A DNA stretch of 64,000 bases from an uncultured Synergistales bacterium (GTDB lineage: Bacteria; Synergistota; Synergistia; Synergistales; Aminobacteriaceae): the NCBI GenBank assembly GCA_905234075.1, contig CAJOGI010000004.1, positions 186,001 to 250,000 of the forward strand, read 5' to 3'. The notes beneath the pieces are model-generated. The model was not told the origin of the DNA and ran no database searches. It saw only the letters and a list, made by a program, of their open reading frames with translations. This document shows positions 5,020 to 14,472 of this stretch, one piece after another. The position numbers were made by a program, and so were the translations under genes. How positions within the stretch are numbered: position 1 is the first letter of the stretch; every line of letters begins with the position of its first letter.

Positions 5020-8000
5020 ATGATGAACAAATACACAATGAAATTTTTAATTTTTGTATCTCTCGCTTTTGTAATTTCGGGAGCATGTTCAGCTTTTGCC
5101 GCTAAAATTGGTAATCAGCCAATGACAACGGTTGATGACGTTGTTGCGGCTACAGGCGTTAATCCTGCACTGAAAAAAGATTCGTTATTGTATGTTCTAC
5201 ATGATAAAAGCAGCGGCAATGTTGAATTTAGATACGTCCGCTTCGGTGATAAATACGCTCTTGAAACTGAGAAAGATGGCAAAACCATTTTCAAGACACA
5301 GACATCGGATAAAAATCACAAACTCAGCGGACTATATCCGGCAGTCTCGAAAAATTACACAAATTCAACCCTTCCGCCCGCTGTCGTAATGGCCGGGCCT
5401 CTTACAGAAGGAAGTTCAACGTACAACTTAAATCTCTATCAGGTATCTAAAAGCGGTAATACTGTTTCAGTAACGGAAAAAAATCCCGTAAAAACAGGAA
5501 ATACATACGTAACGTATGGCGCAGGCTCAGAGAAAGACATCAGCGCACTAAAAGGCGGAATTTTTGCCAACGGAAGCACCCGTGAAATTTTTGCGGCTCT
5601 CCAATGGAATGAAGCAATTAATGGAAGTAATTTTGTAAATCTTGATTTTTTCAGCGTTGCTCAGGGCGGTACTGATATGAAATGGGAAAAGACCCAGACT
5701 ATAGCTGCCAGTCCCTCGCTCTCTTTGGGAAATTCCGCTTCAAAAATGGCTGTAGGCGATTTTAACGGCGACGGTTATGCGAACGAGATTGCAGTCGTTA
5801 CTAACATTCCAGACCAATGGAAATATTATCTCTATGTTTATCAGGTAAACTGGAAGGGAGCTGCTCTTGAAGTTACTACTCTTGTAAATGCTAAGGAAGT
5901 TTATTCACATGCCGTTGATTGGAGTTATGATGGTAATACCCGCCGTGATATTTGGTTCTTAAAGGCCGCCTGCGATGTCGCAATGGCTGACTTCAACGGA
6001 GACGGAAGAAATGAAATTGCCGTCATCTACAAAGGCTACAATGAAGACCTGCCGAGCGGTTTAGATTCAGCTCTGCCGAACACTATGGGCCCCGTTTACG
6101 TCAAGCTCTATCAATACAGCGCAACGAGGAATGACAGACTCATCGAAAGTAAATCAACAGGGAAAAAGAGTTTCAGTTCTTTGGGCAGTTGGAACGGCGA
6201 TAAACGCAAAATCAGCGATATTGGAGATTTGAAAGCCGTTGCTGCCGACGTTGACGGCGACGGAAAGTCAGAGCTTGCAATGCTCGGGATAAGTTGGGAA
6301 TCTGAGTTTGAGAAAAACACTTTTACACGCAACACAATGACGATGGGCGAATGGTCAACGCATTTGCATTTATGGCGGTATGATGCTCCCTCATCAGGTA
6401 CTGCGATAACCGATATTCCCGCGACTTTGAATATGAAGTACGACAAAAAGATTGCAGATTTGGGAAAGATATACAGCAGCACAAAGGAAATCAGAGTTGC
6501 TTATCTGAATGCCGATACTGATAATAACGTTGGCGGTTACCGTGCTTGGGTAGAGAAAAGAACTTTCACGGAACCGGCCTGTCAAATTATTTCGGGCGTT
6601 TTTTCAGGAACATCGACAGCCCAAAAACCCTGCGAGGATATTATTGTCAATTTTGCAAGGGGAAGCGTTCGTCTCGAAGCATTCTGCCCCGTGCTTGACA
6701 ATGACGGCAAATTCAAAGAATTTAAGAAGGTCAGTATTGCTAATTTTACCTATGGAAGTTATACGACTGTCGGACTTGCGGCCGGAGATTTTGTCGGCGA
6801 CGGAGTCCTTCTGAAAAATCCGTATCATATTTATCACGACGGCCGAAGCATTTTAACTTCAGTAATTCAGGCTCTTCCTTATCATGTCGATTATATTCCG
6901 CTCCCTTGGGAAAAGGACGGAAAGCCGAAGCTCGCTAATTTCACTTATGTCCCGGGCGGTGAAGTCTCTTACGTCAGAACAACCGAAACGAAGAACAAAA
7001 ACAGCGTTAAAACTGTTTCAAGTTCAACTTACGAAATGAAAACAAAACTGGGTGCTTCGATTTCTTATTCTCCGACGGATTTGATACCTTTTGTGCCTGA
7101 CCCTAACGATAAATTTTCCCCCAGACAAAGTTTTCTGTTTGAGGGACGGGCAAATTACACGGGCAAGGACACGAGAGACAAATTAGAGGCTTCAACGGAG
7201 ACAGTCAAGACAACAGAGACCGTTAAATCAAGCGCAGTTGACAGCGTTATGGCTTACAGCGTCAGGCATCACACATGGCGTTATCCGATTGACCCTGTGC
7301 CTGAATGGTATAAATCACGCTCGAAAGACATACCGGCTGACGGGAAATTTGCCTACACCGTAACAATGACCGAAGCTCCCAAAGCACACAAAGGACGCAT
7401 AGGTTATAACGCACGTCATGAAGAAGGTAATTTATTTTCATACCCGACAAAAATTGAAAATATCAATGACTTTACGAACGCTAAGACAAAAGTTTTGACT
7501 GAACCTGTAGATTATCTGCTTGAACCCGGCGAATATAAGAAAGAAGTCGAGATTACAGCCTCAAAAGAAACTGAAAATAGCATAACGGCTGAATATACAT
7601 GGCAGGCAGGCTTTAATTTTCAGTACATGTTCGGAAATTACGGAATAGGCAAGAGCGGAGTTAAAGTCGATACGGATCACCAATGGAGCTGGAACGGTCT
7701 CAGAAATAACGTTTTGAACAGCACATTTACGAAGGGCGACAAACTTTCCGTGAGTTTTGCTGACCCCTCGAAGGCTTCAGGAATGACGGGGCTTGTCAAT
7801 AACGTTGCATTTTTAACGACATATCAGGCCTATATTAATCCAAGCGGACTAATGAAAATGGGATTTGCCGTAAATTTACAGGGCGGCGGCTCTCCAACAC
7901 CTTTATTGTGGCGAGAAAGCGTTTATAACGTCAGTGCGGACCCGTCTTTCGTGCTTCCGAACAAATTTGTAATAAAAGACAAAACCGTAGCTGTAAATCC

Positions 8001-9072
8001 TGACAAACTCAGCGCAACTTCTGTCAGAGGTGTTGAACTTTATGCAATGTACGAGGGCAAGCAGCTAATTCTGCCCGCTCCTTTCTTTGCTAAGGGGTCA
8101 ACTTATGTCCTGTCATTCCCGATTTATAACGCGAGTTTCGTTGACGCTCCTTCGTTCAAAGTGAAGCTCTCTTACGCGCCTTACAAGTACAGAAATGACA
8201 CGTCAAAGTTCACGAAAATTGACGAGGTTACTATTTCAACGCTCAAGGGCTGGACACAGGGCAGTGAAGCTAACAAGACATATGCTAATTTCACGTTTAC
8301 AGTTCCGAGTGATGCGGCATTCGGCGACCATGTATTTTTGGCAGAGATTGACCCGGAGAACGCGATAAAAGAAGTCCACGAGGAATGGAGCGAAAAAATA
8401 CCGGGAGGAAATAATACAGGAATTTTTATATTCCCGATTATGGACGCTGACGGACAGAGCACAAGCAATAATTCAAAACGCATTGCGGCTTCTGATGTTA
8501 AAGCAACCGTTAAAGTCGGCAAAAAATCAGGCGTAAAAACTTCAGCAGAAAATGAAGATTATGTGCCTCTTGAATGGGTTGATTACGAAGCGGGCAAAAA
8601 TCTTTATGATTACATAATGAGCCAAAGCGACCCCGTAGAAATTACCGTTAATCTTGATTATCTCGCAGATGCGGAAACGGGATTAACTTTATTCGAGATT
8701 GTTCAGGAAGTTGAAGAAGACGGCGAAAGTTTTGACGAAGTTTATGACGAAGATACTTATTATGTAACAGCAGACGCAGATAACACAATCGATTACAGCT
8801 TCTATTTTGTCATTTCATCTGAAGATATTAAGGACGCAAGAGCTGTCAGGCTTGACATCACAGACCTTGACGATTTAACTTCAGATGACGAGACATTCGC
8901 GGTGTCAGTTCCTTTAATTTTTGCGACCTCGCAGGATAAAGGAAATAACAACGGCGGCGAAACTTTAAGCAGTTCGGGCGGCGGCTGCGGAGTTATGAGA
9001 AATTATTTAATTTTCTTATTGCTTGGCTTTATGTTGTTATCAGTAAAGTTTAACCTGCCGAAAGCAGGCTAA
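5020..9072 (+). CDS. large secreted FG-GAP/VCBS-repeat protein with Synergist-CTERM sorting signal
   Basis: 1350 residues. An N-terminal signal peptide ends near CSAFAA. Four FG-GAP-like calcium-binding blades are visible: GDFNGDGYANEIAVV (about 245), ADFNGDGRNEIAVI (about 323), ADVDGDGKSELAML (about 409) and a weaker AAGDFVGDGV (about 588), suggesting an integrin-like propeller. A CARDB-like beta domain sits near 1020-1150, followed by an acidic segment (about 1180-1310). The end has SSSGGGCG, a hydrophobic helix and a short polar tail, fitting the phylum-specific sorting signal in which the protein is processed or anchored at the cell surface. A surface-exposed adhesin or binding role is likely; no catalytic domain is recognised. 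The last codons (NLPKAG) fall in a hairpin-heptamer repeat. Confidence 0.8.
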   Translation: MMNKYTMKFLIFVSLAFVISGACSAFAAKIGNQPMTTVDDVVAATGVNPALKKDSLLYVLHDKSSGNVEFRYVRFGDKYALETEKDGKTIFKTQTSDKNHKLSGLYPAVSKNYTNSTLPPAVVMAGPLTEGSSTYNLNLYQVSKSGNTVSVTEKNPVKTGNTYVTYGAGSEKDISALKGGIFANGSTREIFAALQWNEAINGSNFVNLDFFSVAQGGTDMKWEKTQTIAASPSLSLGNSASKMAVGDFNGDGYANEIAVVTNIPDQWKYYLYVYQVNWKGAALEVTTLVNAKEVYSHAVDWSYDGNTRRDIWFLKAACDVAMADFNGDGRNEIAVIYKGYNEDLPSGLDSALPNTMGPVYVKLYQYSATRNDRLIESKSTGKKSFSSLGSWNGDKRKISDIGDLKAVAADVDGDGKSELAMLGISWESEFEKNTFTRNTMTMGEWSTHLHLWRYDAPSSGTAITDIPATLNMKYDKKIADLGKIYSSTKEIRVAYLNADTDNNVGGYRAWVEKRTFTEPACQIISGVFSGTSTAQKPCEDIIVNFARGSVRLEAFCPVLDNDGKFKEFKKVSIANFTYGSYTTVGLAAGDFVGDGVLLKNPYHIYHDGRSILTSVIQALPYHVDYIPLPWEKDGKPKLANFTYVPGGEVSYVRTTETKNKNSVKTVSSSTYEMKTKLGASISYSPTDLIPFVPDPNDKFSPRQSFLFEGRANYTGKDTRDKLEASTETVKTTETVKSSAVDSVMAYSVRHHTWRYPIDPVPEWYKSRSKDIPADGKFAYTVTMTEAPKAHKGRIGYNARHEEGNLFSYPTKIENINDFTNAKTKVLTEPVDYLLEPGEYKKEVEITASKETENSITAEYTWQAGFNFQYMFGNYGIGKSGVKVDTDHQWSWNGLRNNVLNSTFTKGDKLSVSFADPSKASGMTGLVNNVAFLTTYQAYINPSGLMKMGFAVNLQGGGSPTPLLWRESVYNVSADPSFVLPNKFVIKDKTVAVNPDKLSATSVRGVELYAMYEGKQLILPAPFFAKGSTYVLSFPIYNASFVDAPSFKVKLSYAPYKYRNDTSKFTKIDEVTISTLKGWTQGSEANKTYANFTFTVPSDAAFGDHVFLAEIDPENAIKEVHEEWSEKIPGGNNTGIFIFPIMDADGQSTSNNSKRIAASDVKATVKVGKKSGVKTSAENEDYVPLEWVDYEAGKNLYDYIMSQSDPVEITVNLDYLADAETGLTLFEIVQEVEEDGESFDEVYDEDTYYVTADADNTIDYSFYFVISSEDIKDARAVRLDITDLDDLTSDDETFAVSVPLIFATSQDKGNNNGGETLSSSGGGCGVMRNYLIFLLLGFMLLSVKFNLPKAG

Positions 9073-9118: not shown

Positions 9119-10900
9119 TTGAACATTAACAAATTCACAAAAGTATTTTTATTTTTTGCGCTTATTCTTTGCCTCATTCAGTCATCAGCACAGGCTTATA
9201 ACACTGAGATAGTTAAAGACGGTTATACGACTGGTAAGAAATACGACCTTATAAAAGGCGTTTTCAAGTTCCCTGCGGTGGACGCAATCAACGGTAAATT
9301 TATTGATATGCCTGCGCGTTTCTTTTATTCTGACGGATTTTTTGAAGAAGATCCGTACAGATATAATCCGAGCATAGCGACGGCTTCTATTTGTATGGCT
9401 ATGGCAGGCTTCTATTCAAACGAGGGAGGAACGGGCAAGAACGCGAATTATTCAAATAAATCTCAAAATATCGTTGACTACATGAAAGATATTGGCGTTG
9501 CTGAAAAAAATATTTATCGCAATGCTTATAACAGAATGAGACCTCAGACTGACAGTATAGGCGTAACAATAGGCATGAAAAAATTATCCAATGGCCGTAC
9601 ACTTATTCCTGTTTCGATACGAGGCGCAAATTATGAGCGTGAATGGACAAGCAACGTAACTTTAGGCAAAGAAGAAAACGGAGAAGCCAAAGGATTTGCA
9701 ACAGCCGCGAATATAGCTTTTTCAGAAATTAAGAAATATATAACACAGTCAGATGATTTAGTTACTGAAATAAATAACGGCAAAGTTAATTTCTGGATTT
9801 CAGGCTATTCACGCGCAGGAGCTACAACGAATTTAACGGCAAAGCGTCTTGTTGATGAATATGTTTCAAAGGGCAATCAGGTTTTCGCTTATTGCAACGA
9901 AGCACCAATGGGAGGCGTGGAGACTGCAAAAACTTCAGGCGCAAATTATAATTGTATTCACAGCGTAATCAACCGCAATGACCTTGTACCGAGAGTTGCA
10001 CCCAAGAAAATGAACTTCATTCGCTACGGCGTTGACCACTATATACCGGGTACTGAGGCAGGAACTGTCGCAAAAGGAACTGACGGAAATCAATACGACA
10101 ACACTTTTTATACTGCCTCATCAAGTGAATATGCCGCCGTCAAAACGGAGATGTTAAAACATCTTGCGGCTGTAAATTCTTACATTACGTTCAATGATAA
10201 ATTCACGCCTAAAGGATTGAAGAAAGTAATTTTGATACCTCCTGTAGAAGGCAATGCAACTCTCATGAATGTTTATTTAGATGATTTACTTGATAATTTA
10301 TGCAATTTAACCAATCTTAATCGTGCCGTTTACACAGGCGGGCATAATATAACGTCGGACAAATTTACAATTTACGGCGATATTCAAACGGCCTTGCGCA
10401 ATTATATGACAATGTATTTCGGTTCTCCCAAGACAGAGACTGATGAATTTAAGAAGCGTCTTCTGTCAATTTATAAAGAAAGCTCATGGAAAGAATTATT
10501 TGACATGGTTTGGAACGCTCTGCGCAAATGGGACGATCCCGGCTTCAAGTATAAAGCCCACTATATAACAAAGGTTCTAAAATGGTTCAAGGATAAAAAA
10601 TGCTTTGACGCTTTAGAGAGCTTGACAGATATTGAGAAAAATAAGCTAATGGCAGTTGATTTACCTATTATCTTGAATTTATTGCTGACTTATGCCTCAA
10701 ACGATTATTGGAAGAAAAGCCCTCAATACGGAACAAACGGACTGGCGCAGATTTTGACATTGATTTCAAATATCGAGAATATCGGCATGAACCACAATCC
10801 CGAAGTTACGCTGGCATGGCTCCGCGCTCAGGATACGCTCTATAAAAATGAGACAGCGGCCGTAACTGCTTCCTCAGTTATAAATTTGAGCAATGTTTGA
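9119..10900 (+). CDS. secreted lipase-like alpha/beta-hydrolase (N-terminal part of a split gene)
   Basis: 593 residues starting at TTG (9119) with an AGAAGG ribosome site a few bases upstream. The signal peptide ends near SSAQAYN. The nucleophile elbow is seen as FWISGYSRAGATTN (GYSRAG, a GxSxG/A variant as in class 3 lipases). The pattern RNDLVPRVAP after a beta strand is the usual position of the catalytic Asp, and VDHYIPG offers a His. The likely activity is hydrolysis of an ester outside the cytoplasm; the substrate is unknown. The protein has no surface-anchoring tail; that tail lies in the overlapping frame at 10893-12020. The two are probably one gene separated by a +1 frame change. 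Confidence 0.7.
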   Translation: MNINKFTKVFLFFALILCLIQSSAQAYNTEIVKDGYTTGKKYDLIKGVFKFPAVDAINGKFIDMPARFFYSDGFFEEDPYRYNPSIATASICMAMAGFYSNEGGTGKNANYSNKSQNIVDYMKDIGVAEKNIYRNAYNRMRPQTDSIGVTIGMKKLSNGRTLIPVSIRGANYEREWTSNVTLGKEENGEAKGFATAANIAFSEIKKYITQSDDLVTEINNGKVNFWISGYSRAGATTNLTAKRLVDEYVSKGNQVFAYCNEAPMGGVETAKTSGANYNCIHSVINRNDLVPRVAPKKMNFIRYGVDHYIPGTEAGTVAKGTDGNQYDNTFYTASSSEYAAVKTEMLKHLAAVNSYITFNDKFTPKGLKKVILIPPVEGNATLMNVYLDDLLDNLCNLTNLNRAVYTGGHNITSDKFTIYGDIQTALRNYMTMYFGSPKTETDEFKKRLLSIYKESSWKELFDMVWNALRKWDDPGFKYKAHYITKVLKWFKDKKCFDALESLTDIEKNKLMAVDLPIILNLLLTYASNDYWKKSPQYGTNGLAQILTLISNIENIGMNHNPEVTLAWLRAQDTLYKNETAAVTASSVINLSNV

Positions 10901-12020
10901 AAACGCAGTCATTGTTGCCATTGAAGAGATACCCGATGTATATCTTGAACATGGAGCAACAAATGTAAAGGCCGGACTTCCTAACGCTACAGCTTGGGAC
11001 AGTGAAGGAAATTCGTATAAGTTAAGCGTAACATGGAACGACCCCGTTTGGTATGTTTTCAATGACACTGCCGCTATAAGCGAGGATCTTTGGAAAAAAA
11101 TTGATGAAAGCAAGCTGTCAGAAACTGCTAAAGCACTAATGGCGGACTTTAGCGGCACCGTTCAAACAAACGGTAAAAAACTTGAAGAAGGCATCAGCAC
11201 TGATATAACGGCAAAAGTATATATAGCGGGACTTCCGCAGCTTGAAATGCCTAAATCGTCATTGCCCGAAGGAGAGTATGACGGGCCGCAGAAAATTATT
11301 TTGAGCCGTGAAATTAACGACGGCAGCGGTGATATTGAATACCGTATCTCTCAATTTATTCAATATGACGACGGAGGCACAGGCGGCGAAGGAACTTGGA
11401 TAAATACTAAGTACACGGGGCCCATAACGCTTGGCGAGGGACTTACTTCGAGCATTGAGTACGCGCTTCTTGCAAAAGTTAAAAGCAATACGACGACAAA
11501 TGCCGACAGTGAAGAAATGATATGGTATTACAAAATAAATCCTGCAAAGAGCGATGACGGAAGCGGCGATACTGTTCAAACAACTTTCTCAAAAGTTTTT
11601 ACGCTTTCAAATGACATTGCCGTTTGCTGGAGCATAGATATTGCAAACATAGCTGTTAATACTTCAAGCGTTATGACTTCGGCTGTTTCCGACAGTTTAG
11701 ATGTTACTTTAAGTCCTTCAAACGCTGATACAACGGCAACAGAAGAAATCAACGTAACAGTCATCGCAACGGCAGGAACAACCATCAGAGGAACTTATAC
11801 AATCCCTGTTAAGACTTCAACGGACGGCGGACTGACTTGGACAACGGACGCGACAAAAACAATTAAATTTAGCACGTCCGAAGCGACAACAGCAATCCTG
11901 CCTGCTGCAAGTTCAAGCGGCTGCAATGCCGGACTTACCTCCTGCGGAATTGTTTTTCTGCTCGCGTTTGCTTTTATCAAATTCGCAAGAAGACTCCCAC
12001 TAAAAAAAATCAGGAGCTAG
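10893..12020 (+). CDS. Ig-like domain protein with Synergist-CTERM tail (C-terminal part of the split gene)
   Basis: 375 residues if started at the ATG at 10893, which overlaps the previous stop by 8 bases. It begins exactly at a bacterial Ig-like (Big_4-type) domain: IEEIPDVYLEHGATNVKAGLP and later LSVTWNDPVW. A second beta-rich segment (about 110-220) and a third with VTVIATAGTTIRGTYTIP follow. The end has AASSSGCNAG, a hydrophobic helix and KFARRLPLKKIRS, a textbook sorting tail. It has no signal peptide and no clear ribosome site, so as a separate protein it could not be exported. I infer that it continues the hydrolase at 9119. The last two codons and TAG (AGGAGCTAG) match a heptamer repeat. 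Confidence 0.65.
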   Translation: MFENAVIVAIEEIPDVYLEHGATNVKAGLPNATAWDSEGNSYKLSVTWNDPVWYVFNDTAAISEDLWKKIDESKLSETAKALMADFSGTVQTNGKKLEEGISTDITAKVYIAGLPQLEMPKSSLPEGEYDGPQKIILSREINDGSGDIEYRISQFIQYDDGGTGGEGTWINTKYTGPITLGEGLTSSIEYALLAKVKSNTTTNADSEEMIWYYKINPAKSDDGSGDTVQTTFSKVFTLSNDIAVCWSIDIANIAVNTSSVMTSAVSDSLDVTLSPSNADTTATEEINVTVIATAGTTIRGTYTIPVKTSTDGGLTWTTDATKTIKFSTSEATTAILPAASSSGCNAGLTSCGIVFLLAFAFIKFARRLPLKKIRS

Positions 12021-12063: not shown

Positions 12064-14397
12064 TTACAATGGCGTAACTCCGAGCGCGATACACGCAACA
12101 ATTGAAAGAATACTTACGCCCCAAATCCATAAAAGCGAATATTTAATATGTTCGCCGACGTCAATTTCAAGAAGGCCAAGCCCTAAATACATCGCAGGCG
12201 ATAACGGCGAAATCATAACGCCGACGTTCTCCGCAACTAAGAGAACGCACGCAACGTCCAGCGGGTTTACGCCGAACTGTGAAGCTATACCGACAACAAC
12301 AGGCAATAAGCCGAAATAGAAGCTGTCAGTTCCCAAGCACATGATCAACGGCACCGCGAAGCACGCCACGATGAAGTGAGTATATCTGCCAAGTTCCGGC
12401 GGTATGAATGTAACTGCCGTCGAGGCCATAGCGTTTAACATTCCTGTTCCGTTCAAAACGCCCGTGAAAATTCCTGCCGCAAATAACGTAACTACCATTG
12501 ACATTGCCGCCACGCCGTAATTCTTTAATTTAGCGTTCTGCTCTTTCAAAGATTTAATGTTGAACGGCAGCGAAATAGCAAGCGCAATCATAAACACGTA
12601 AGCAGGATTGAATTTGCCGTACATTAACGCCGCAACGACAGCAATAACAAGAATGAAGTTATAAGCCTGCAACGCTCCTGAAACTTTCGGGCCTTTCTCT
12701 TCGGCTTTTGCTTCTTCAAGTGCCTCGTCAGCAGTGAGACCGAGCTTTCTAATTCTTCTCTTCTGAACACCGCTCAATAAGAACGCAACAAGGAACGTAA
12801 CGACAAGCATTGTCCCCTGAACAGGGAGCAGTCTCTGCCATAAAATGTTCGGATCTGTCTCGAGAACTGTTGCCGCTCTAATCGTCGGGCCTCCCCACGG
12901 GCACACGTTCATAACTCCGATAGCAACGCAGATTAAAAGCATTAATGCCCTGTTGTCCATTTTCAATTTCTTGAACATCGGAAGCATTGCCGTAATCGTA
13001 ATAACGAACGTCGTCGCGCCGCTGCCGTCAAGGTGTCCGATAATTCCGACCGCCGCTGTGGCTAATAATACGAGGGTTACGCTCGTTCCGGCCTTCTTGA
13101 TTAAGAAATTGACTATCGGGTCAAAAACTCCCTGCTCGCTCATCAGTGAGAAGAACGAAATCGAGAACACGAACAGAGAAACCGTCGAGACCATTTTTGA
13201 AATTCCCGAAGCCGCAAATTTATTAATCGCAAACGGGTCAAAACCGGCAACAAGCGCGGCAATAGTCGGAAGCAAAATAAACGCAACAGGAGGAATTACA
13301 ACCTTCTTGATTAAGCAGAAAATCAAAATTAAAACCATTACGAAGCCGATAACTGCGAGCTTCATTGACGGAGCAGCGGCGGCCTTCTTGTCGGGAGCCT
13401 TCGCAGGTTTTAATATACTCGTGAAAGCTTTATACTCGTCAGCAAGAATTTTTGAATACTCTTCGCTGTTCGCGTAGCCCGGTCTTTCGTCATAAGTTCC
13501 TTCTTCAAGAAATGTTTTCCACTCTTCAGTGTTCACGGCTCTTTCAATCGCGGCGGCCATTGCGTCAAGAGCTTCCTGCGGCGTGCCCTTCTTCGCAAAA
13601 ATTCCTCTCTCAGGCCCAAGAACTGAATTAATGCCGAGCTCTTTTGAGCTTTGAACGTTTGGGTATCTCCTCATTCTTTTCTCTGAAAGCGAGAGCAGCG
13701 GAACGATATTGCCATCTGAAAGTAATTCATCTACCTCGTCCATTCCCGTTATCATGAGGTCAATTTGTCCATCTGTAAGAGCGAGGGTCGGCCCTGAGCC
13801 TGTAGGATAAGTAACTTCGAGAATATTAAGCCCCTCAAAAGTCTGCCTTATCGCCATTCCGTCAATGCCGGTGAGCGTGAGCATACCTATGCTTATACTT
13901 GACGGGTGGTCTTTAATGAATTTCTGAAGCTCTGAGAAATTGCTGTAGCCTCTTTCTTCCATTGTCTTGCGTGAAGCGGCGATTACGTTAATGGCGTTCA
14001 CGAGCCTTGCAACGGGGACAAACTCATCAAGGAACTTGAACTTCATATCGCCGATGATGTCCTGAACTAAAAGGCTCTGGGTGCCGAGCAAATATGTGTA
14101 GCCGTCAGCTTCATGCTCTTTTGTGTAAGTAGCACCGTTCACTCCGCCGTTGCCGGTAACGTTGAGGACTTCAACTTTCTGGCCTAATTCTTTTTCGAGA
14201 AGAGGAATGAAAGCGCGAATAGTTGAATCAGATCCGCCGCCTGCGCCCCACGGGCAGACGATAACAATTTTCTTGTCGAACTTGAAGCCACCGGGAGCAG
14301 CTGCCGAATCGCTCGATACGTCTGCGGCTGAAAGCACAGAAGCACACAGCGAAAGCGCAAGAACTACAGTGAGAAAAATACATAAAAATTTTTTCAC
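12064..14397 (-). CDS. fusion of TctC-type solute-binding protein and CitMHS-family carrier
   Basis: 777 residues in one uninterrupted frame. Residues 1-25 form a signal sequence or anchor. Residues about 35-325 are a Bug/TctC binding protein (IVCPWGAGGGSDSTIRAFIP, VTGNGGVNGATY, YPTGSGPTLALTDGQIDLMI). An Ala/Pro/Lys linker (KPAKAPDKKAAAAPS) leads to about 440 residues of a 10-12-helix carrier. That part resembles the CitMHS divalent-metal-citrate symporters: GHLDGSGATTFVIT, VCPWGGPTIRAATVLETDP and GTDSFYFGLLPVV. TctC proteins normally serve TctAB, which is absent here. A single-chain, binding-protein-dependent secondary importer of citrate-like carboxylates is inferred. A copy of the 102-bp upstream element lies at 14473-14574. 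Confidence 0.8.
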   Translation of the reverse strand: MKKFLCIFLTVVLALSLCASVLSAADVSSDSAAAPGGFKFDKKIVIVCPWGAGGGSDSTIRAFIPLLEKELGQKVEVLNVTGNGGVNGATYTKEHEADGYTYLLGTQSLLVQDIIGDMKFKFLDEFVPVARLVNAINVIAASRKTMEERGYSNFSELQKFIKDHPSSISIGMLTLTGIDGMAIRQTFEGLNILEVTYPTGSGPTLALTDGQIDLMITGMDEVDELLSDGNIVPLLSLSEKRMRRYPNVQSSKELGINSVLGPERGIFAKKGTPQEALDAMAAAIERAVNTEEWKTFLEEGTYDERPGYANSEEYSKILADEYKAFTSILKPAKAPDKKAAAAPSMKLAVIGFVMVLILIFCLIKKVVIPPVAFILLPTIAALVAGFDPFAINKFAASGISKMVSTVSLFVFSISFFSLMSEQGVFDPIVNFLIKKAGTSVTLVLLATAAVGIIGHLDGSGATTFVITITAMLPMFKKLKMDNRALMLLICVAIGVMNVCPWGGPTIRAATVLETDPNILWQRLLPVQGTMLVVTFLVAFLLSGVQKRRIRKLGLTADEALEEAKAEEKGPKVSGALQAYNFILVIAVVAALMYGKFNPAYVFMIALAISLPFNIKSLKEQNAKLKNYGVAAMSMVVTLFAAGIFTGVLNGTGMLNAMASTAVTFIPPELGRYTHFIVACFAVPLIMCLGTDSFYFGLLPVVVGIASQFGVNPLDVACVLLVAENVGVMISPLSPAMYLGLGLLEIDVGEHIKYSLLWIWGVSILSIVACIALGVTPL

Positions 14398-14472
14398 TTT
14401 GAAACTTACCTCCTGAAATAAAATTTTATTTGGGTGTTGAAATTTAAGTTAATTATAACTGAATGAGGGCAA

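Follow-up and report, generated by a model that had tools for sequence, protein, structure and literature searches.

The preliminary description of this locus reported a TctC binding protein joined to a carrier of the CitMHS family, for which it knew of no receptor, in agreement with the open-access literature that we searched. The locus lies in the window, i.e. the whole stretch of 64,000 nucleotides that was analysed, and raises the question whether such a chain exists and what the receptor might do for the carrier.

A TctC receptor and a full-length CitMHS carrier in one chain

The frame had been described as uninterrupted over 777 residues, which was confirmed. Its parts are as follows:

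12064..14397, minus strand: TctC-CitMHS fusion gene, 777 aa, GTG start, no internal stop
14409..14414, minus strand: ribosome-binding site AGGAGG, 11 nt before the GTG, read by eye
14323..14397, minus strand: Sec signal peptide, about residues 1-25, from sequence and alignment
13411..14277, minus strand: TctC/Bug receptor domain, residues 41-329, from Pfam PF03401, phmmer and Foldseek
13366..13410, minus strand: Lys/Ala/Pro linker, residues 330-344, about 15 residues, from the alignment
12064..13365, minus strand: CitMHS carrier domain, residues 345-777 plus stop, about 12-13 hydrophobic segments

In line with the proposed joining of a Bug/TctC receptor to a carrier of a different family, both halves scored far over their Pfam cut-offs. 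TctC (PF03401) matched residues 67-330 with an E value of 6e-23 (82.2 bits versus a cut-off of 27), and CitMHS matched residues 362-722 with an E value of 3e-21. Moreover, the NCBIfam model TIGR00784 (citrate:proton symporter) aligned over positions 2-427 of its 431 with residues 347-774, narrowly passing the cut-off by about 3 bits (262.6 versus 259.7 bits). The linker, reported as rich in Ala, Pro and Lys, has this composition in the alignment as well. The preliminary description had also considered that the C-terminal half might belong to TctA; this candidate was ruled out, as the domain search returned CitMHS and no match to TctA (PF01970) in the 777-residue chain. No Pfam match to TctB was obtained within the chain, and no TctB-like frame was noticed in the scanned part of the neighbouring frames of the window. 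Likewise, neither TAXI and GltS nor DctP, the TAXI receptor and DctQ are among the Pfam matches of the chain.

The relatives display AxA-type signal cleavage sites. Since Cys18 of the signal peptide is not conserved in the alignment of relatives, the fused protein is probably no lipoprotein. The upstream gene, which is presumably FtsH-like, ends 237 bp from the fusion, and the next gene downstream is located on the opposite strand, suggesting that the fusion is transcribed alone.

Conservation of the fusion within one genus

Of 26 related loci detected in a scan with one genome per species, 25 carry the two halves in a single open frame, L006 and L021 among them being truncated by a contig end. 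All 25 stem from assemblies of Synergistaceae or Synergistales, and many assembly titles name the gut of goat, sheep, deer or reindeer. Identity at these loci amounts to 80-99.5% in the carrier and 60-97% in the receptor. When 185 Synergistota genomes were surveyed, the fusion was present in 32 of the 43 genomes of the window's Synergistaceae genus (the copies of G077 and G071 being cut by contig ends) and in none of the 142 others. Purifying selection acts on both halves, the median dN/dS being 0.14 in the receptor and 0.06 in the carrier; pairs with a dS of 0.2-2 were used, which left 85 and 186 of 300, respectively. The receptor is the faster-changing half, with a mean column identity of 0.79 versus 0.92 for the carrier.

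These data bear on the possibility, named in the preliminary description, that an error had joined two adjacent genes. Because the same single chain is found in 25 of the 26 relatives, a sequencing error is ruled out, and the conserved open frame likewise rules out a frame error between adjacent genes. With 25 loci in separate assemblies, each forming one frame, and with the low dN/dS, a sequencing or assembly artefact is hardly conceivable. Thus, the fusion of a TctC receptor with a full-length CitMHS carrier is real.

Searches outside the phylum yielded no further fusion. Among 504 plasmid records matched by tblastn, none covered 80% of the query; the longest partial match, on a Caballeronia plasmid, is a free CitMHS gene without a TctC frame, and the match on a Haladaptatus plasmid is annotated as a free symporter. 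The 398 sampled genomes of Pseudomonadota gave 49 carrier matches, none of them fused; one lies in a frame of 812 codons (L128), which contains no TctC. The viral contigs searched contained no fusion.

Two further features of the neighbourhoods were observed. A gene family with a match to M48 peptidases (e.g., L010 8409-9122) occurs in 16 of 26 neighbourhoods (those of the window and of the 25 loci), in most cases immediately downstream of the fusion; it is absent at the window's own locus. In the window, at 9119-12020, a Lipase_3-like protein overlaps the start of another frame, the end of which resembles a Cys-containing membrane sorting tail, and a similar sorting-like tail ends a frame of 1350 aa at 5020-9072.

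The receptor half resembles receptors of citrate lyase operons

The receptor matched the PDB entry 25hk in phmmer with an E value of 4.7e-29. Structure prediction, proposed as a check in the preliminary description, was successful in part: the modelled receptor matched TctC structures in Foldseek (best E 6.8e-15) and was the only part with useful matches in the PDB, but the carrier alone reached a mean pLDDT of 40.3 (54.7 for the whole chain).

At 52-57% identity, the nearest kin of the receptor are unfused TctC proteins encoded first in gene rows of the order TctC-TctB-TctA-CitD-CitE-CitF (L078 and others, with L077 showing the TctCBA part; domains were scanned in representatives). In the tree, fused and operon receptors are split by one branch with a support of 96/100, for which the bootstrap had not settled. 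A comparison of the invariant positions in 23 fused and 10 operon receptors revealed 64 that are identical between the groups and a single fixed difference. The presumed pocket-region loops, placed after Bug structures, are almost alike in both groups, and the two other TctC proteins of the window's genome are far off. The 64 shared positions together with the near-alike loops argue for the same ligand in fused and operon receptors, which would be citrate.

The same machine could serve a related substrate: isocitrate, aconitate, tricarballylate or some other tri- or dicarboxylate. Many dicarboxylates are ligands of TctC proteins (PMC5812351), a free CitMHS gene of genome G117 (42% identity) adjoins an aconitase-family gene (L061), and the cut-off of TIGR00784 was passed by 3 bits only. 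We nevertheless consider a substrate other than citrate distinctly unlikely, since the nearest receptors come from operons for citrate lyase and have their pocket-region loops in common with the fusion.

Additional receptors of this type were encountered in two genomes. A diverged second TctC of the citrate type lies near cit genes in G077 (L098 3612-4805) and G075 (L100 3402-4577); that of G075 directly precedes citDEF, without an adjoining TctB or TctA.

The receptor is attached to the native N-terminus of the carrier

The fused carriers form one clade (100/100), which joins the free CitMHS of genome G157 (56% identity; 100/99) in a tree rooted for drawing only. The preliminary description had regarded the topology as a puzzle, reasoning that a receptor outside the membrane requires either the number of helices or the orientation to differ from free CitMHS proteins. 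This expectation was not borne out. The fused carrier aligns with free CitMHS proteins from helix 1 on, with no helix gained or lost, and the N-terminus of the latter falls at the linker-helix junction (the L029 row was ignored in reading the linker). Each of the 26 carriers in the alignment, whether fused or free, has 1-2 Lys or Arg residues just after helix 1 and 3-11 in the central loop; the tail preceding helix 1 contains 0-3, some tails being read from stop to stop and thus past the likely start. Moreover, the carrier half matches the Pfam model of the TRAP subunit DctM over nearly the whole length (27.8 bits versus a cut-off of 23.8). The solved DctM-type subunit of PpSiaQM has both termini outside and 12 TM segments (PMC9971032).

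The charge pattern and the homology to DctM suggest that the N-terminus of the carrier lies outside. With the carrier's own N-terminus placed there, an external receptor fits the native topology, and the puzzle would dissolve, the receptor sitting where the carrier naturally begins. By its Pfam homology to DctM, the carrier half is a candidate for an elevator-type member of the IT superfamily, which would be built of scaffold and transport domains with inverted repeats. When solved structures were searched by profile for a relative of CitMHS, only designed proteins were returned, with E values above 1.

A second pairing of the same receptor type with CitMHS

Another member of the genus, G058, encodes CitMHS and a TctC of the citrate-operon kind as separate genes 15 bp apart, with CitMHS first (L059 5004-7307). 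The gap contains the motif GGGAGG, TctBA is not present there, and the gene order is the reverse of that in the fusion. The G058 carrier groups in a different supported clade (99/97) together with that of G103, where the free CitMHS gene directly follows citE-citF (L064). Because the G058 carrier belongs to a different clade, the pairing of receptor and CitMHS probably arose twice, with the same receptor type meeting two CitMHS lineages. Among 18 free CitMHS genes of Synergistota (18 of the 20 unfused matches above 90 bits, with some flanks shortened by contig ends) this is the only one with a TctC gene nearby. In Pseudomonadota, where 34 of the 398 sampled genomes had a match, TctC was found near one of 49 CitMHS genes, on the opposite strand.

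The rarity of such neighbours (1/18 and 1/49, respectively) would suit a tethered receptor that raises the concentration of citrate near the membrane or sharpens the affinity, leaving CitMHS to work alone without obligate docking. To our knowledge, no free CitMHS carrier depends on a receptor, and the carrier half retains the length and the start of the free carriers. We still hold such a concentrating role to be fairly unlikely: G058 shows the pairing again with two separate genes, so that a single-chain tether cannot be its purpose there, and the linker is short, with a similar length among the relatives.

The fusion as candidate citrate carrier

The window's genome has adjacent citD, citE and citF genes (L083) and lacks an operon-type TctCBA; citD and citF scored above the model cut-offs, and CitE below the citE equivalog cut-off. 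The fusion gene does not adjoin citDEF. An operon-type TctA, defined by at least 91% identity to TctA of L077, is present in 28 of the 43 genomes of the genus. As 24 of the 43 carry both this gene and the fusion (G077 among them without a CitF match), the fusion is no simple replacement of the operon TctCBA. Eight of the 43 combine the fusion with CitF and lack the operon-type TctA, seven of these genomes being at least 90% complete, and four (G044, G058, G074 and G082) possess CitF with neither of the two.

With regard to other carriers, the window's genome encodes two TctA genes, each with its own adjoining TctC, and gave no match to a DASS carrier. Its single 2HCT carrier gene is located between a malic enzyme gene and another carrier gene and scores below the citrate models; these neighbours suggest malate. 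The presence of the 2HCT gene weakens the notion that the fusion is the only citrate carrier. Given the lack of a DASS match, the position of 2HCT beside malic enzyme and the pairing of the other TctC proteins with TctA, the fusion is the likeliest citrate carrier of this genome, not a proven sole one. The CitMHS protein CitH of E. faecalis takes up metal-citrate with protons and serves a citrate lyase pathway (PMC3198936). By analogy, uptake of the CitH type would fit an anaerobic citrate fermenter.

Second citrate lyase rows in G059, G073, G053 and G047 (L093-L097) bear other carriers, namely 2HCT in L093 and MatC/CitMHS-like proteins in L094 and L095 (Pfam). Exchange of the carrier family thus seems frequent in the citrate lyase rows of this genus. 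In some rows, CitD and CitE are apparently fused in one frame (L094 4606-5820 and L096 4342-5556).

Proposed function

Based on these sequence comparisons, we consider it reasonably probable that the fused protein takes up citrate, either free or bound to metal, as a secondary transporter that is fed by its receptor within a single chain. Export via the signal peptide would place the TctC domain at the N-terminus in the periplasm, where it would close on citrate. The loaded receptor may then dock on its own carrier domain via the short linker and open, releasing citrate into the outward-facing site of the putatively elevator-type CitMHS carrier, which would import it, presumably with protons, for citrate lyase. 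The handover would resemble that in TRAP systems with a fixed receptor:carrier stoichiometry of 1:1. Both the receptor dependence of uptake and the substrate are thus predicted from sequence. The receptor might instead act as a sensor or regulatory lid without handing over substrate, comparable to BctC, which signals to BctE in Bordetella. TctC homologues can indeed signal (PMC5812351). A sensory role is very improbable here, as the fused partner is a carrier and no sensor kinase was recognised in the scanned part of the flanking frames of the window.

Discussion

Several known systems share components with the fusion. Like the TTT system TctCBA (TC 2.A.80), it employs a TctC receptor of the citrate-operon kind; unlike TctCBA it has neither TctA nor TctB, the carrier being CitMHS. 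With the citrate-metal:proton symporters CitM and CitH, which we take to be TC 2.A.11, it shares a full-length carrier over the TIGR00784 cut-off, but it bears a receptor at its N-terminus. The match to DctM over the Pfam cut-off relates it to TRAP systems (SiaPQM), which are binding-protein-fed elevator carriers, the type proposed for the fusion; in contrast to these, its receptor is TctC rather than DctP or TAXI, it lacks DctQ, and the receptor is fused.

Synergistaceae, the host family, are diderm. The nearest precedent in our best reading is TAXI-GltS, found fused in Lachnospiraceae and as two genes in Bordetella (BP0403/BP0402; PMC12344293, 2025). Both systems place an N-terminal binding protein and a C-terminal secondary carrier in one chain, occur in fused and separate-gene forms, and involve a carrier family that usually works alone. 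They differ in receptor (TctC), carrier (CitMHS) and the putative citrate-type substrate, so that TctC-CitMHS would be of the same functional kind with both families exchanged. The reason offered there for the Firmicutes fusions, namely that cells lacking a periplasm could not retain the receptor (PMC12344293), is inapplicable to a diderm host.

No account of a TctC-CitMHS protein came to light in our search of the open-access literature. The finding suggests that receptor-fed carriers evolved more often than known. The authors of the TAXI-GltS study ask why binding proteins are so rare among secondary carriers, and propose that elevator mechanics may be required, an idea that further classes would test (PMC12344293). 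TctC-CitMHS would add a class of this kind from a different carrier family. Its fused, two-gene and free forms within one phylum provide a natural comparison set, and the fixed 1:1 stoichiometry of the single chain would be convenient for structural and kinetic work. Finally, the fusion is a warning that 'orphan' TctC receptors may serve carriers besides TctAB.
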